A stretch of DNA of 64,000 nt from Thioalkalivibrio sp. ALE31 (GTDB taxonomy: Bacteria > Pseudomonadota > Gammaproteobacteria > Ectothiorhodospirales > Ectothiorhodospiraceae): contig NZ_KB905023.1 in NCBI RefSeq assembly GCF_000377405.1, positions 248,001 to 312,000 of the forward strand. Reading direction: 5' to 3'. Of the stretch, positions 6,899-49,215 are shown piece by piece. The first letter of the stretch is position 1, and every line of letters starts with the position of its first letter. Below the pieces are notes generated by a model. It did not search any database and had not been told where the DNA came from. It saw only the letters and a program-made list of their open reading frames with translations. The translations under genes were made by a program, and so were the position numbers.

Positions 6899-7413
6899 AT
6901 GAAACAGAACATTACCCTGTCCCTCGACAAGCAGGTACTGACCGAACTGAAGGTCATCGCAGCCCGTCGTTCGACTTAGGGAGACGCTGATTGAATCGCA
7001 CGTCCGCGCTCGAGTCGCTTTTGCGTGCGTTTAATGCGCGGTGACTGCCGTGCAGTCATTCTGCACAAAGGAGCCGCAACGCCGTTCCCACGCAAAAGCG
7101 GCCGAGCCCCTGCTCTCAATGGCTTGTGGGGTTGGTGCCCCCTGTTCCGCGATCCTGCGTTGCGCCGCTTGCGGGTAGAACCACTACCCGCTGCACGACG
7201 CGCCTTGCCTCGGAAAACAGGGGGCACCAACGCGGACGTGCGATTCAATCAGCGTCTCCTTAGGTCAGCCGGCTGCTGACGGAGGAACTGGAGCACATCG
7301 TGGAACGATCCGAACGGTATGAGCGTTCCAAGCGCGCGGCGCTGCCCGCTCTGGACAAGGGCTGCCACTTCGGCGGCGAACGCCCGGATCGGGACGCGCT
7401 GCATGAGCGATAA
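6899..7413 (+). pseudogene. RHH antitoxin gene interrupted by palindromic element A
   Basis: Left fragment 6899-6979 encodes MKQNITLSLDKQVLTELKVI then AARRST and a TAG stop. Right fragment 7264-7413 continues VSRLLTEELEHIVERSERYE and on to LHER stop. Joined, they give the continuous RHH antitoxin seen with PIN toxins (ARRST-xVSRLL is the usual junction). The 280-bp element at 6980-7259 separates them. TTAG flanks it on both sides, and the left TTAG creates the premature stop. The gene is inactive as an antitoxin unless a short fragment has a role. The downstream PIN partner is also only a remnant. Confidence 0.85.
6980..7259. mobile_element. Palindromic MITE-like element, copy A (280 bp)
   Basis: Perfect 29-bp terminal inverted repeats: left from 6980, GGAGACGCTGATTGAATCGC and on to CCGCG at 7008; right 7231-7259 is its exact reverse complement. 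TTAG at 6976-6979 and 7260-7263 are direct flanks that may be a target duplication. Inside are a GTTGGTGCCCCCTGT / ACAGGGGGCACCAAC stem, a GCGGGTAG / CTACCCGC hairpin tip, and a smaller hairpin GTGCAG-TCATT-CTGCAC. No protein is encoded. Copies B (39880-40152) and C (48431-48640) share the plan. Confidence 0.9.
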
Positions 7414-39554: not shown

Positions 39555-40590
39555 ATGAAAGATAGATCCGCCCTCGGCAGTAAGCCTTCTCTCAATGATT
39601 CAGGGAAGGCCGACCCCGAGGGCTCTTTGTTTCTGCGCCACGCAAGTCCTGCCGTGACTGCGGTGCTGGTCGACGCCGGCTTCTTTCTGGTTCGAAGCCG
39701 ACGCATTTTCGGCAAGCAAGGCCCGGAAGAAACCGCGAAAACCCTCCACGGTCTCGCCCTTGATCATCTCAACGCCCCACGCAATGGGCCGCGGGTTTCC
39801 CGCCTCTATCGCATATTTGTCTACGACGCCCACCCGTCGAACTGGAAAGGACACACCCCACTAGGCAAGAGCCTGTCGACCAGGGGAACACTGATCAATG
39901 TACACGCTCGCGCTCGAGTCGCTTTTGCGTGCGAACAAGGCGCGGTGACTGCCGTGCAGTCATTCTGCACAAGGGAGCCGCAACGCCGTGCGCGCGCAAA
40001 AGCGGCCGAGCCTCCTGGGGTTGGCACCCCAGGTTCCCCGATCCTGCGTTGCGCCGCTTACAGGTAGAACCACTACCTGTTGCACAACGCGCCTTGTCTC
40101 GGAAAACCTGGGGTACCAACGCGAGTGTGTACATTGATCAGTGTTTCCCTGGGGCAGAAGCGAGGTCGCCGTATGGCGGCGGGCATTCCATGACGCACTT
40201 CGCAGCCAGCGAAAGGTCGCTTTGCGGCTCGGGGAGCTGCCGACCAACCATGTCCACTGGCGCCTGAAGCAACACGCGCTGCATGCACTCTGCCAGGGAG
40301 CGCGCGACTGGACGGACATCACCGACGCCGATTTCCACCTCGACCTGCGCCAAAAGGGCGTGGATATGCGATTGGGCATTGATATCGCCGCATTGTCGTT
40401 CAAGCAACAGGTGAATCAGATCATCCTGGTCTCGGGCGACTCCGATTTCGTTCCAGCCGCCAAACTGGCACGACGGGAAGGGATCGATTTCATCCTCGAC
40501 CCCATGTGGGCAACCATCCGCCCAGACCTGCACGAACACATCGACGGTCTGAGAAGTGTTTGCCCGCGCCCGACGCCTGCGACTCCCTGA
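39555..40590 (+). pseudogene. NYN-domain (LabA/DUF88-like) protein gene split by palindromic element B
   Basis: Left part 39555-39879 encodes an N-terminus with AVTAVLVDAGFFLVRSRRIF and SRLYRIFVYDAHP; right part from about 40153 encodes RSEVAVWRRAFHDALRSQRK, then QKGVDMRLGIDIAAL and VSGDSDFVPAAKLARREGID. Together they give one NYN protein of about 255 residues with the acidic RNase-like residues (VDAG, VDMR, SGDSD). The 273-bp element at 39880-40152 interrupts it, shifts frame and adds a stop near 40065. Both halves are otherwise undamaged, so the insertion looks recent. Confidence 0.85.
39880..40152. mobile_element. Palindromic MITE-like element, copy B (273 bp)
   Basis: Terminal inverted repeats of 33 bp with two mismatches (CCAGGGGAACACTGATCAAT at left; its inverse ends CAGTGTTTCCCTGG at right). 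Internal stems GTTGGCACCCCAGGT / ACCTGGGGTACCAAC, tip CAGGTAG-TGGTT-CTACCTG (read on the minus strand; plus-strand loop AACCA), and side hairpin GTGCAG-TCATT-CTGCAC. Same orientation as copy A. No protein. Confidence 0.9.
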
Positions 40591-44868: not shown

Positions 44869-46248
44869 TCAGCTATCGGATTTCACACGCTTGGGGTCGA
44901 TCCCCAGCGCCTTGAACTTGCGGTACAGATGGGTGCGCTCCAGTCCCACCCGTTCCGCCAGGCGCGTCATGTTGCCCTCGGAACGCTCCAGCTGCTGCTG
45001 CAGATACTCGCGCTCGAACTGCTCGCGCGCCTCGCGCAACGGCAGGTCGGGGATGGCCACTGTGCCCTCGCCAGCCTCCTCCGCGCGCTGCGGCTGCCCG
45101 CTGAGGGTGCGTTCCACCTCGTCGCGGGTAATCTCGTCGCCGGAGCCCAGGATCATCAGCCGCTGCACCAGATTGCGCAGTTCGCGCACATTGCCGGGCC
45201 AGTGGTACTGCTGCAGCCGCTCCAGTGCCGGGCGCTGGAAGGCGCGCACCGGCAGGCCCTCCTGCTGGTGCAGGTGGCGCATGTGGCATTCCAGCAGTTC
45301 GGGGATATCCTCCGGGTGCTCGCGCAGTGGCGGGATCGCCAGCGGCAGTACGTTGAGCCGGTAATAGAGGTCCTCGCGGAAGTGGCCCTGCTCCACCGCC
45401 TCGGCCAGGTCGTACTGGCTGGCCGCGATCACGCGCACATTCACGCTGATCGGCTGGTTGCCGCCAATGCGCGTGATGCGCTGGGTGTCCAGCGCGTGCA
45501 GCAGCCGCCCCTGGGTCTGCAGGTCCATCTCCGCGACCTCGTCGAGGAACAGCACGCCGCCCGCCGCCTGCTCCAGCAGGCCATAGCGCACATGCTCGCC
45601 CTGCTCGCTGCCGAACAACTCGGCAATCGCCTCCTCGCCGGACAGCGAACCCACTGAGACCACGATGAACGGGCTCTCGCGCCGCGCGCTGCGCGCATGC
45701 AGCAAGCGCGCGAAGGTCTGCTTGCCCACCCCCGGCTCGCCGGTGATCAGCACCCAGGTATCGTGCTGCGCCATGCGCTGCACCTGGTCGCGCAGGTTCA
45801 CCATGGTGGCGCTGCTGCCGACCGGGTCGTGCACGGTGCCGGCATGGCGTTTCAGGCCCACGTTCTCGCGCTGCAGGCGCGCGGCCTCCAGGGCGTTGTT
45901 CAGGGTGATCAGCAGCTTGTCGATGGACAGCGGCTTCTCGATGAAGTCGTAGGCCCCGAGTCGCGTGGCGTCCACGGCGGTCTCGACATTGCCATGGCCG
46001 GAGATCATCACCACCGGGCAGGGCAGGCCCTCGTCGTCGCTCCACTCCTTCAGCAGCGAGATGCCGTCGCCGTCCGGCATCCAGACATCCAGCAGGATCA
46101 GATCAGGACGGCGGCTGCGGCGCTGGGCCTTGGCCTCGGCCACGGAGCCGGCAAGGGCTACCTGGTAGCCCTCGTCCTCCAGCACATCCTGCAGCAGCAT
46201 GCGGATGTCCGGCTCGTCGTCGACCACGAGTATGTAGGCTTCGCTCAT
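44869..46248 (-). CDS. ntrX: NtrX-like response regulator lacking the sigma-54 contact loop
   Basis: 459 residues. Receiver domain: DDE near 10-12 and phospho-Asp54 in LILLDVWMPDGDG. AAA+ domain: Walker A GEPGVGKQTFARLL (near 168), Walker B GGVLFLDEVAEMD. At the place of GAFTGA the sequence runs ELFGSEQGEHVRYGLLEQAA, so the loop that contacts sigma-54 is missing. A Fis HTH ends it (NMTRLAERVGLERTHLYRKF). It is probably a phosphorylation-controlled DNA binder or repressor rather than a sigma-54 activator (inference). Overlaps ntrY by 4 bp. Confidence 0.9.
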   Translation of the reverse strand: MSEAYILVVDDEPDIRMLLQDVLEDEGYQVALAGSVAEAKAQRRSRRPDLILLDVWMPDGDGISLLKEWSDDEGLPCPVVMISGHGNVETAVDATRLGAYDFIEKPLSIDKLLITLNNALEAARLQRENVGLKRHAGTVHDPVGSSATMVNLRDQVQRMAQHDTWVLITGEPGVGKQTFARLLHARSARRESPFIVVSVGSLSGEEAIAELFGSEQGEHVRYGLLEQAAGGVLFLDEVAEMDLQTQGRLLHALDTQRITRIGGNQPISVNVRVIAASQYDLAEAVEQGHFREDLYYRLNVLPLAIPPLREHPEDIPELLECHMRHLHQQEGLPVRAFQRPALERLQQYHWPGNVRELRNLVQRLMILGSGDEITRDEVERTLSGQPQRAEEAGEGTVAIPDLPLREAREQFEREYLQQQLERSEGNMTRLAERVGLERTHLYRKFKALGIDPKRVKSDS

Positions 46249-48449
46249 TCGGGCTCCTCGTGAACCACCGGACCATGCTCCACCGGAATGCGGATGCGGA
46301 AGACCGCCCCATGCCGCCCGGATTCCGCATTATGGCACTCAATCATGCCGCCATGCTCCTCCACGATCTTCTGTGCGACCGCCAGACCGAGACCGGTTCC
46401 ACGCGGTTTGTCGGTGGTGTAGGGCTCGAAGATGCGTTCGAGGAACTCCGGCTTGATGCCGGGACCGGTGTCGGTCACCCGCAGCTCGATGTGCGGACCC
46501 GCCGGGTCGTCGAGGTAGGCAGTGGCCACATGCACCTCCATGTCCTCGTGGCCCTTGCCCGCCTCCAGCGCGTTCTTGATCAGGTTGTGCAGCAGCTGGC
46601 GCAGGCGCCCGGCGTCGCCATGGATCCGCGGCAGTTCCGCATCCAGCGTGACATCCACGCGCGAGCGGCCGTCCTGGTCGAGGTACAGCTCGCAGACATC
46701 GCGGATCAGCTGGTTCAGGTCCACCGAGGCGCGCTCCAGCTGCGGCGCCTGGGCATAGTCGCGGAAGGCGTTGACCAGGGTCTTCATCGCCTCCACCTGC
46801 TGCACGATGGTGCCGGTGGCACGGTCCAGCACCTCGCGGTCGGCTCCCTCCAGCACCTTGCCCAGGCGCCTCGAGAGGCGCTCGGCGGAGAGCTGGATCG
46901 GCGTCAGCGGGTTCTTGATCTCGTGTGCCAGACGCCGCGCCACCTCGCCCCAGGCCGCGTCGCGCTGGGCCTTCAGGAACTCGGTCATATCGTCGAACAC
47001 GATGGCGTGCAGGCCGCGGCTGGAGCCCGAGGTCGGCAACCACACCGCGCGGGTCATCAGTACCTTGCGCCCGCTGCGGGTAAAGACGACCACCTGACGC
47101 GACCATTCGGCCTCCTGGCGCACCAGGGCGTCGCTGATCGCCTCGAAGAACTGTGCGACCAACGGGCACTCGTCACCCAGCTCGGACATCACCCGGGTGC
47201 GCGCGCCCTGCAGGTCGCATTCCAGGATCTCGCTGGCCGCGGCATTCGCCGTGCGCAGGCGCAGGCTGCCATCCAGCGCCAGTACGCCGGAGCGCAGATG
47301 CTGCAGCACGCTCTCCAGATAGGCGCGCTCGGCGTCCAGCAGGCGGCGGTTGCGCTCGGCCTCGTCGCGCGCCTCGTTCAGGGTGCGAGTCATGGTGTTG
47401 AACGACTGCACCAGGAAGCCCAGCTCGTCGGCGCGCTGCACCGCGAGGCGCGTGCTGTAGTCGCCCTGCGCCACCATGCGCGTGCCCTGCACCAGATCGG
47501 AGATCGGGCGCACCATGCGCCGCGCCACCAGCAGACCGGCCCACAGCGCGGCCATCAGCGAGATCGCCAGCGCCAGTGACAGGGTAAACACAAAGCCCTG
47601 AATCATCGGCCCGCGCAGGTAAGCGAACTCGCGGTAATCGGCGAAGGCGTCCTGAACCCGCAGCGACAGCGCACTCATGCGCGGATCCACCGGGTAGATG
47701 CCCTGCAGGATGCGATTCTCCGAGCCCGGGCGGCGACTGCTGGTGGTGGCCACCACGCGGATGATCAGCGAGCCGTCGGACTGCGGCTCCAGGCGCGAAT
47801 ACGGCTGCTCCGGGCGCACCCGCATCAGGATGTCGGAGCCCGGCGGGGTCGGCAGACGGCGGATCGGGCTGTCGGTACTGGAGGCGATGATGCGGTTGTT
47901 CGAACCGACCAGCGTCAACTCCTGCGCCCCGACCTGGCGGCGATAGTCGTTCAGCGCCAGCGGAACCAGGCCTTCCGAGACCCCCTCGAGGTCGCTCATC
48001 AGTTCCTGGGTCTCGGTCGCCAGCTGGCGCACCCGCAGATCCAGCGACGAGCGCGACAGCTCCAGCGCATCCTCCAGCGCCGACTCCACGCGCACGTCGA
48101 ACCAGGAATCCACGCCCTCGTTCAGGAACTTGAAGGAGAAGTAGTAGACGACCGACACCGGCAGCACGGCCACCAGCATGAACACCGCCACCAGGCGCAG
48201 CGTCAGGCGGCTGCCGGGCACCCCGCGGCGATACTGGATCGCCATGCGCACGAGCTGATAGATAATCAGCCCGCCCAGCACCACCAGCACGGCCACATGG
48301 AACACCAGCAGCCACAGGAACACCTGTTCGAAGCGCGCCTGGTTCTGGGCCGCATCGCCCATCACCACCAGCGAGGTCAGCAGCAGCGCGAACAGGAGCC
48401 CGATGCCGAGGAGCCCCCACGGGAAGCCTCTTAGGGAAACGCTGGTCAA
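46245..48449 (-). CDS. ntrY: NtrY-like membrane histidine kinase with element-supplied start
   Basis: 734 residues. N-terminal helices (GLLGIGLLFALLLTSLVVMG and a second near 45-65), a third at LVAVFMLVAVLPVSVVYYFS, an extracytoplasmic segment, another helix then HAMP, a PAS-like region, the HisKA box LAHEIKNPLTPIQLSAERL (His near 506) and HATPase (NLIKNALEAGK, DTGPGIKPEFLERIFEPYTT, GTGLGLAVAQKIVEEHGG). The only early start is a TTG at 48449, inside the inverted repeat of element C, preceded by GAGGG at good spacing. The native start may have been displaced. Confidence 0.9.
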   Translation of the reverse strand: MTSVSLRGFPWGLLGIGLLFALLLTSLVVMGDAAQNQARFEQVFLWLLVFHVAVLVVLGGLIIYQLVRMAIQYRRGVPGSRLTLRLVAVFMLVAVLPVSVVYYFSFKFLNEGVDSWFDVRVESALEDALELSRSSLDLRVRQLATETQELMSDLEGVSEGLVPLALNDYRRQVGAQELTLVGSNNRIIASSTDSPIRRLPTPPGSDILMRVRPEQPYSRLEPQSDGSLIIRVVATTSSRRPGSENRILQGIYPVDPRMSALSLRVQDAFADYREFAYLRGPMIQGFVFTLSLALAISLMAALWAGLLVARRMVRPISDLVQGTRMVAQGDYSTRLAVQRADELGFLVQSFNTMTRTLNEARDEAERNRRLLDAERAYLESVLQHLRSGVLALDGSLRLRTANAAASEILECDLQGARTRVMSELGDECPLVAQFFEAISDALVRQEAEWSRQVVVFTRSGRKVLMTRAVWLPTSGSSRGLHAIVFDDMTEFLKAQRDAAWGEVARRLAHEIKNPLTPIQLSAERLSRRLGKVLEGADREVLDRATGTIVQQVEAMKTLVNAFRDYAQAPQLERASVDLNQLIRDVCELYLDQDGRSRVDVTLDAELPRIHGDAGRLRQLLHNLIKNALEAGKGHEDMEVHVATAYLDDPAGPHIELRVTDTGPGIKPEFLERIFEPYTTDKPRGTGLGLAVAQKIVEEHGGMIECHNAESGRHGAVFRIRIPVEHGPVVHEEPE

Positions 48450-48640
48450 CGTACACCCTCGCGTTGGTATCCCAGATTTTCCGAAACAAGGCGCGGTCCG
48501 CAGCCGGTAGCCATTCTACCGGCAAGGGCCGCAACGCCGGATCGGGGAACCCGGGGTACCAACCCCAAGGGGCTCGGCCGCTTTCGCGCGCGCAAAAGCG
48601 ACTCGAGCGCGAGCGTGTACGTTGACCAGCGCTTCCCTAA
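48431..48640. mobile_element. Palindromic MITE-like element, copy C (210 bp)
   Basis: 33-bp terminal inverted repeats with two mismatches (TTAGGGAAACGCTGGTCAAC at left; right end GTTGACCAGCGCTTCCCTAA). Opposite orientation to A and B. It keeps the long stem (GTTGGTATCCCAGAT-type) and the tip GCCGGTAG-CCATT-CTACCGGC, but lacks the side module of about 60 bp, leaving a closed CTTTCGCGCGCGCAAAAG hairpin. It fills the whole gap between the DUF4390 gene and ntrY and reaches into both. Confidence 0.9.
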
Positions 48641-49215
48641 TCCAGCGACCATCGCCGCCACTCCTGTCGGGTCGTCAGATCACCGCGCAAACCGGCATCC
48701 AGCTGCAGGGGCAGCGGCAGCGCGGAATACACCAGCGTCAGCCGCGCCGCGAGATCGAACTCGCCGGGATTCTCGCGCACCGCGTCCGGAACCTCGTCCA
48801 GACGCAGCCGCCCCAGCCGCCGGGCGACCAGGTCCAGGGCATCCCCCAGGGTCGGTTTCAGGTCCATGCGCTCGTCGGTCACCGCGGTTACCAGATAGTG
48901 CCGATTCAGGGCGAAGTATTGCAGCTGGACGCGACGCGTCTCGCTGGCAAGGGTATCGCGCCCGACCCGCCGGCCGCGTTCCAGCCGCGTCTGCGCCTCG
49001 AACTCCAGCGTCACGCCGTTGGCCAGGGCGTCCTCCAGCACCGCGGGCAGGCGCATGTCGATATCGAGGCGCACCAGCACGGTGGCATCATCCAGCCACA
49101 TGTGATTCGCGGCGCGGATCTCCACCGCGCTCGCCGTCACCGGCAGCGCCAGCAGGGCCAGTAGCCCGCACAGCGCCGTCAGGGGCCCGCCCCGCCACGA
49201 TGAACGCCCCGGCAT
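48637..49215 (-). CDS. DUF4390 protein
   Basis: 192 residues with a Sec signal (LTALCGLLALLALPVTASA) and a mature part VEIRAANHMWLDDATVLVRL, LRGDL near the end, matching the DUF4390 family found before ntrYX in gammaproteobacteria. Predicted periplasmic; function unknown. Its TAG stop (complement of 48637-48639) lies in the end of element C, so the last codons may have been changed by the insertion. Confidence 0.85.
   Translation of the reverse strand: MPGRSSWRGGPLTALCGLLALLALPVTASAVEIRAANHMWLDDATVLVRLDIDMRLPAVLEDALANGVTLEFEAQTRLERGRRVGRDTLASETRRVQLQYFALNRHYLVTAVTDERMDLKPTLGDALDLVARRLGRLRLDEVPDAVRENPGEFDLAARLTLVYSALPLPLQLDAGLRGDLTTRQEWRRWSLD

Follow-up and report, generated by a model that had tools for sequence, protein, structure and literature searches.

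An inverted-repeat element between DUF4390 and ntrY in Thioalkalivibrio that may relay translation from one gene to the next

The window analysed here, a stretch of 64,000 nucleotides (nt) from Thioalkalivibrio sp. ALE31, lies within contig C4 of its genome (hereafter G000) and carries, between a DUF4390 gene and ntrY, a short inverted-repeat element that we call element C. Both genes and the element are read on the minus strand. Element C, which reads TTAGGG...CCCTAA, covers 210 nt (48431..48640; the core without the flanking target bases, 48434-48637, has 204 nt), and its terminal inverted repeats, one on the DUF4390 side (48608..48640) and one on the ntrY side (48431..48463), are 33 nt long and 94% complementary. 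The DUF4390 gene (48637..49215), which encodes 192 amino acids (aa), ends in a TAG stop at 48639-48637, and ntrY (46245..48449) encodes 734 aa when counted from a TTG at 48449-48447. Both genes were confirmed by Pfam, the latter through NtrY_N, HAMP, HisKA and HATPase. In agreement with the preliminary description of this locus, the gap between them is entirely occupied by the element.

That description also had the element supply the stop codon of the first gene and the start codon of the second. The stop codon does overlap the element, but its TA is the left copy of the target duplication (48638..48639, the right copy being 48432..48433) and only its G, at 48637, is the element's own first base. 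As for the start, the TTG at 48449 indeed lies in the ntrY-side repeat and is the only in-frame start codon upstream of NtrY residue 7 in the window; the next ones follow 63-69 nt downstream of the element. The Shine-Dalgarno-like GAGGG proposed for it is also found there (48456..48460), with 6 nt between it and the TTG. All eight genomes that carry an element at exactly this site have the TTG, and five of the eight have GAGG, compared with 3 of the 282 repeat ends of 141 other distinct copies (Fisher p 1.8e-7; the sequences are related and so not independent).

The state of the junction before the insertion can be read from relatives. A DUF4390 gene was found in 29 of 30 Thioalkalivibrio genomes, and the junction with ntrY was readable in all 29 (in G021 through locus L030, since L014 has no ntrY). 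Eight of these junctions carry an element at the exact site (L001-L004 and L010-L013), two carry one 5 nt upstream in the opposite orientation (L007 and L008), and the other 19 are empty. All of the empty junctions except L028 (18 of 19) have overlapping genes, the DUF4390 stop codon sharing its last base with the first position of the NtrY residue 7 codon; in these 18 an ATG or GTG stands in frame five codons before that residue, as in L005 (CG-ATG-GTC-GCT-GGA-CTG-AGG). When the junction is compared in this way, as had been suggested, the close element-free relatives begin ntrY at an ATG inside DUF4390 and the carriers at the TTG; use of the same TTG by element-free relatives is impossible, the TTG being element sequence. 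The DUF4390 stop codon is TGA or TAA in the empty relatives and TAG in the window, at the same codon position, and therefore the DUF4390 protein is unchanged by the insertion; its C-terminus in the window is still W-S-L-D. In addition, the window retains the ancestral ntrY ATG (48652-48650) and, 8 nt before it, the Shine-Dalgarno-like AGGAG that belongs to this start (48661..48665). The element thus split the old start from ntrY and was not a gift to a gene without one. The target duplication at ntrY is seen as T-TA-GGG...CCC-TA-A against the exact empty site TTAA in L009 (GGATTAAG). The earlier claim that both reading frames were preserved holds insofar as both genes are left open and DUF4390 is unaltered; ntrY, however, is re-started and its first residues are replaced.

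Two of the empty junctions, L005 and L009, are nested among the carriers in the tree (supports 99 and 100), and L005 has the older CTGA. Their position among the carriers L004, L010 and L012 seems to need either a precise loss of the element or recombination of an empty allele. The eight copies at the ntrY site share 80-94% identity with one another, no higher than their identity to some copies elsewhere (up to 91% for that of L010).

A third reading frame, missed in the preliminary description, crosses the element. In the window this frame, orfX (48446..48652, minus strand), runs from the old ATG at 48652-48650 to a TGA at 48448-48446 in the ntrY-side repeat and encodes 68 aa. From the old ATG the frame is open across the element in all eight carriers, with lengths of 68, 104, 99, 99, 99, 99, 99 and 102 aa, and it always ends in a TGA that overlaps the TTG (TTGA). 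Controls for this phase came from 70 other copies (46 in G000, 24 in other genomes); both ends could be anchored in 55 of them, and the remaining 15 were dropped. The same phase was open in only 2 of the 55, or in 6 when a stop in the first repeat was ignored; at this place, the DUF4390-side repeat of element C has CTGG, in contrast to the CTGA, with its in-frame stop, of most control copies. A pair of in-frame TGAs recurs in this phase (45 and 43 of 63 aligned rows) and both are absent at ntrY (0/8), the place of the second being deleted in the window's copy. When neutral evolution was simulated along the element tree from the L004 sequence (2000 runs at each of two settings), all eight frames stayed open in 1.5% and 1.1% of the runs. 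The ratio of nonsynonymous to synonymous differences (pN/pS) of the orfX peptide was 0.79, against 0.12-0.25 in ntrY of the same eight carriers, and the four relay peptides that we scanned, two of them orfX, gave no Pfam match at E<=0.1. Judged by these comparisons, the frame at ntrY appears to be kept while its peptide is hardly conserved. The candidate reading of orfX as a conserved new protein was dropped on the pN/pS value and the absent Pfam match.

A comparable arrangement is present in L007 (147 nt) and L008 (318 nt), the copies inserted upstream of the carrier site in the opposite orientation. Here the DUF4390 stop is followed after 3 nt by an ATG in the repeat, from which the crossing frame runs for 37 and 94 aa, respectively, to close as ATGA on an ATG in frame with ntrY, which places the start at -8 codons. 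As L007 and L008 are sister genomes (support 100), the two insertions may be one event.

Other family sites show the same architecture: the upstream stop falls at the element's edge, a start codon lies in the repeat, and a frame runs open across the element to end close to or on the next start. The genes concerned are presumably uvrC, pgsA, ribH, nusB, thiG and trmB, judging by their protein sequences. Between uvrC and pgsA, 28 loci were informative: eight carry the family, one carries a different insert (L223), and in the 19 empty ones pgsA has its nearest start 1-9 nt past the uvrC stop. In five of the eight carriers (L197-L201), a relay of 90-100 aa closes as ATGA on the pgsA start. Between ribH and nusB the relay closes as GTGA on the nusB start in all four carriers; the spacing there varies in empty relatives, which gives no evidence of tight coupling before the insertion. 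The overlap counts at these two junctions omit L206, L207, L209, L251 and L254. Finally, the relay ends in ATGA in two carriers at thiG-trmB (L096 and L133), where 12 close relatives are empty and have the start 1-2 nt past the stop. The different insert at L223 (G004) occupies a uvrC-pgsA gap of 154 nt and begins at a TAG stop; possibly it is another family doing likewise.

Element C belongs to a family present at no fewer than 47 places in G000, a lower bound because scoring covered 40 of 81 and 40 of 85 candidates. Family matches were found in 16 of the 30 genus genomes at E<=1e-40, and in 16 of 47 genomes of the host's taxonomic family at E<=1e-15, all of them Thioalkalivibrio; element C had no match in the plasmid collection. 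The copies are short (below about 500 bp) with terminal inverted repeats, dispersed in many places and associated with a target-site duplication, features that they share with miniature inverted-repeat transposable elements (MITEs). Many copies end in C-TA-GGG...CCC-TA-G and others deviate; TA is found at both ends in many copies, though not in all, and many of the TA-flanked ones have CTAG or TTAA at their ends. The core measures 249-313 nt in 147 anchored copies, as opposed to 204 nt in element C. Repeat arms within a copy differ on average at 1.57 of 26 positions, against 5.18 for arms taken from different copies (141 distinct anchored copies); the arms therefore change together, their pairing being maintained or renewed. 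In the search for a partner transposase, which covered the DDE_3 family and the end pattern in the element's own genome, G000 gave no DDE_3 match, and the element's end pattern was absent from all 11 DDE_3 loci in the genus. The commonest core lengths (297, 282, 283, 312 and 298 nt) are often spaced by about 15 nt, which would fit the gain and loss of a 15-nt module.

To the first set of copies we added 80 further places, taken nearly in order from among the genus matches listed and leaving out the ntrY site, the own genome, known places and some places at contig ends; copies outside G000 were sampled by similarity to the ntrY copy of L010. In total, 147 of 158 copies were anchored, and removal of three double entries and three ntrY-site copies left the 141 distinct ones. 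The tests for orientation, openness and overlap were set before the second set was taken, without fixed cut-offs, and the relay criteria had been settled on the first set; as both copies and genomes are related, the p-values overstate independence. Sixty-nine copies lie between co-directional genes (60 in the favoured orientation, nine in the other), 20 between divergent and five between convergent genes, and 47 are unclear. Co-directional copies were called tight if the upstream gene stops at most 60 nt ahead of the element and a possible downstream start follows it in under 60 nt: 49 of 54 such copies, or 38 of 43 distinct sites, had the favoured orientation (p 2.5e-7 for the sites), with 22:2 in the first-set sites and 16:3 in the sites found only in the added, replication set. 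Of the five exceptions, L158 alone has a frame ending in TTGA, and there the call for the upstream gene does not fit.

The favoured orientation is opposite to that at ntrY. Read in this direction, the 55 anchored controls have a frame started in the repeat that is open in 44 when a stop in the first repeat is ignored, and in 32 there is an ATG as well. The repeat-started frame was open in 50 of 55 copies when 35.4 were expected under random placement of the same substitutions, whereas the other five frames gave observed and expected values of 9/7.5, 31/33.5, 0/8.1, 1/1.8 and 0/6.8. In the 38 favoured tight sites, the upstream gene stops at the element's edge or within its first 16 nt in 28 and before the element in 10. 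The relay is open in 19/22 first-set and 13/16 added-set sites. Its stop lies -5 to +15 nt from an in-frame downstream start in 12/22 and 7/16 sites, respectively, and overlaps the start exactly in nine of the 38 (six in the first set and three in the added one). At 28 relay sites, exact overlaps numbered nine in the true downstream frame versus three and one in the other frames, and near starts 18 versus 11 and three, although the true-frame counts are inflated by the presence of a real gene start near the element. With duplicates removed, the relay was open in 50 of 60 favoured co-directional copies and in 14 of 25 divergent or convergent ones (p 0.012); the frequencies elsewhere were 6/9 for other co-directional, 12/20 for divergent, 2/5 for convergent and 35/47 for unclear copies.

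Taking the anatomy of the locus, its ancestral state, the frame open in all eight carriers and rarely in other copies, and the orientation bias of the family together, we consider it roughly 65% probable that element C is tolerated between two translationally coupled genes through an ability to relay translation. Originally ntrY began at the ATG overlapping the end of DUF4390. The element entered at the DUF4390 stop codon, leaving the old ATG and its Shine-Dalgarno sequence in place. Ribosomes starting from this ATG would read 68-104 codons across the hairpin of the element, stop at the TGA in the far repeat and re-initiate at the overlapping TTG, the new ntrY start. Folding prediction for the element C transcript gives a hairpin of -158 kcal/mol (z -10.6) with the TTG in its basal stem, and relay translation would open this stem and bring the ribosome to the overlapping start. 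From the sequence comparisons we infer that the relay frame is translated, that re-initiation, not independent initiation, feeds ntrY, and that selection has held the frame open. Domestication or selection, as put forward in the preliminary description, is partly borne out by what appears to be local adaptation at ntrY, but domestication of a single copy is too narrow an idea, since the architecture recurs at other sites of the family. Overall, the observation made there was confirmed and its interpretation is partly supported. The relay architecture looks mainly like a family property that makes operon insertions tolerable, with local adaptation added at ntrY. Whether the family as a whole evolved as a translation relay, we consider an even bet. 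In this reading its ends would offer stop-then-start junctions in more than one frame, its interior frame would be kept open, and insertions would be tolerated mainly where that frame runs along with transcription; at ntrY, where the element is turned the other way, a frame that is normally closed stands open and a Shine-Dalgarno-like sequence accompanies it.

Several observations weigh against a relay. Open relay frames are frequent whatever the context and therefore partly intrinsic to the family. As the eight carriers are related, their eight open frames may stem from one lucky ancestral copy, and the element at ntrY sits in the family's rarer orientation. The TTG, led by GAGGG, could start ntrY independently, and in six of the eight carriers it is preceded by other in-frame starts. 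Five empty outgroup junctions (L017, L018, L020, L023 and L027) have another possible start one codon ahead of residue 7. At uvrC-pgsA, the relay of G000 itself falls 24 nt short of the called pgsA start. The added set yielded only the three exact overlaps and seven near starts in 16 sites given above, and the gene calls, from a simple codon model, left 47 of the 141 distinct copies unclear. A core length that is a multiple of three was found in 37 of the 55 controls as well, and divisibility by three was dropped as a sign of frame selection for this reason.

The TTG might have been used independently from the outset through the GAGGG of the repeat, with the crossing frame an accident inherited from a single ancestral copy and not needed. 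Such a passive insertion fits the near absence of constraint on the orfX peptide, the relatedness of the carriers and the concentration of GAGG at this site, which looks like a selected feature. We nevertheless think it unlikely, because the three carriers without GAGG still have the open frame and the TTGA, at least one frame loss was expected in nearly all simulated histories, and both the TTG and the GAGGG are predicted to lie inside a very stable stem; moreover, L007 and L008 reach the same kind of solution by a different insertion. It also seems doubtful that the orientation bias results from transcription (a direction-dependent terminator or promoter) or from the insertion mechanism, with the open frame a by-product of composition and hairpin. 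The 14 of 25 open relays in copies that are not between co-directional genes agree with this idea, but openness is higher in the favoured co-directional copies (50/60) and exceeds random placement (50 versus 35.4 of 55, in copies that share ancestry), and the near-palindromic ends should allow both strands to form similar hairpins.

Two further possibilities concern the proteins themselves. If ntrY truly began downstream at Met31, in line with the next in-frame start codons of the window, the element would only lengthen the leader. This downstream start, which had been named as an alternative, is very hard to reconcile with the data: residues 7-30 of NtrY show coding constraint, with a pN/pS of 0.25 in the eight carriers and 0.43 in five empty relatives (0.12 and 0.20 for residues 31-206), the NtrY_N profile match starts at residue 21, and the start codons of the empty relatives lie upstream of Met31. 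Nor do we expect orfX to be a functional new small protein, which we hold to be highly improbable even though the frame is open in all carriers, in view of its pN/pS of 0.79, the absence of a Pfam match at E<=0.1 and a length that ranges from 68 to 104 aa.

Mycobacterial interspersed repetitive units (MIRUs) offer the closest parallel to a relay at ntrY. The hosts of MIRUs, mycobacteria, belong to another phylum than Thioalkalivibrio. MIRUs are interspersed, apparently mobile repeats at start codons and are said to work similarly; we liken element C to them in its mode of action and do not class it as a MIRU. The element C family differs from them in its long terminal inverted repeats, the TA at both ends and the strong hairpin, and in that its start signals (ATG or TTG) come from the inverted repeat itself; the relay at ntrY also begins at the host's old start codon and ends in TTGA. 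By analogy, the principle would be the same as in MIRUs, and the novelty would lie in a TA-flanked inverted-repeat element of a gammaproteobacterium that carries the junctions in its own ends. A second class of element, built on inverted repeats, is suggested to have reached the solution attributed to MIRUs. The family also resembles TA-duplicating MITEs of the IS630/Tc1 type, which are short, multicopy and have terminal inverted repeats with TA at both ends. IS630 has a target preference for CTAG. The ends of our family fit, but no DDE_3 transposase with such ends was found. For the Chunjie MITE of Geobacter, a relay frame is not mentioned in the available part of its description.

Rickettsia palindromic elements (RPEs) are mobile palindromes that keep host gene reading frames open (PMC10969869). 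They fuse in frame into proteins, whereas the frame of element C spans the gap between two proteins and ends where stop and start overlap; the accessible portion of the same source reports open reading frames in MITEs and in-frame RPE fusions and not the relay arrangement. Overlapping stop and start codons are described as the arrangement with the strongest coupling, the 4-nt overlap being among the commonest spacings and coupling being nearly lost at about 20 nt, according to the text seen (PMC10666635). Termination-reinitiation of the ATGA type takes place between ordinary genes, while at ntrY the upstream partner would be an element-derived frame. In Thioalkalivibrio, repetitive extragenic palindromic sequences (REPs) of 20-40 bp, including REP dimers interrupting uvrA, appear in the part consulted of PMC3733652; by their size they differ in kind from the element C family. 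Within the accessible portions of the open-licence literature, including PMC10969869, PMC12548453, PMC3733652, PMC5328954 and PMC10666635, we found no description of this family. Likewise, Rfam gave no match to the element at gathering score in five loci (two tRNAs only) and none at 48300-48800 of the window, where a single sub-threshold hit lies outside element C.

The family bears on how small transposable elements spread among the genes of bacterial operons, which are often close together and coupled. In operons of central genes (those we take to be pgsA, nusB and trmB, together with ntrY) it provides numerous natural insertions for which relatives with an empty site exist, and it lets insertion between coupled genes by ribosome hand-over be examined directly. 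If the relay is real, a selfish element and a host operon would be tied together at ntrY by ribosome traffic.

Downstream of ntrY, on the same strand, lies a response regulator gene (44869..46248, 459 aa) that we presume from gene order to be ntrX. The window holds two other copies of the family, both on the plus strand. Copy B (39880..40152) lies between genes that a simple open reading frame caller places as divergent, and copy A (6973..7268) belongs to a GGAGACG subfamily whose repeat reads GGAGACGCTGATTGAATCG, with TTG in place of ATG in the same phase. Elsewhere in G000, copies lie at or near contig ends (the start of C1 and C10 and the end of C2, C9 and C16), where the repeat may break the assembly. 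At G000:C6:35199-35226, two repeat ends overlap nearly tip to tip, a candidate extreme deletion derivative.

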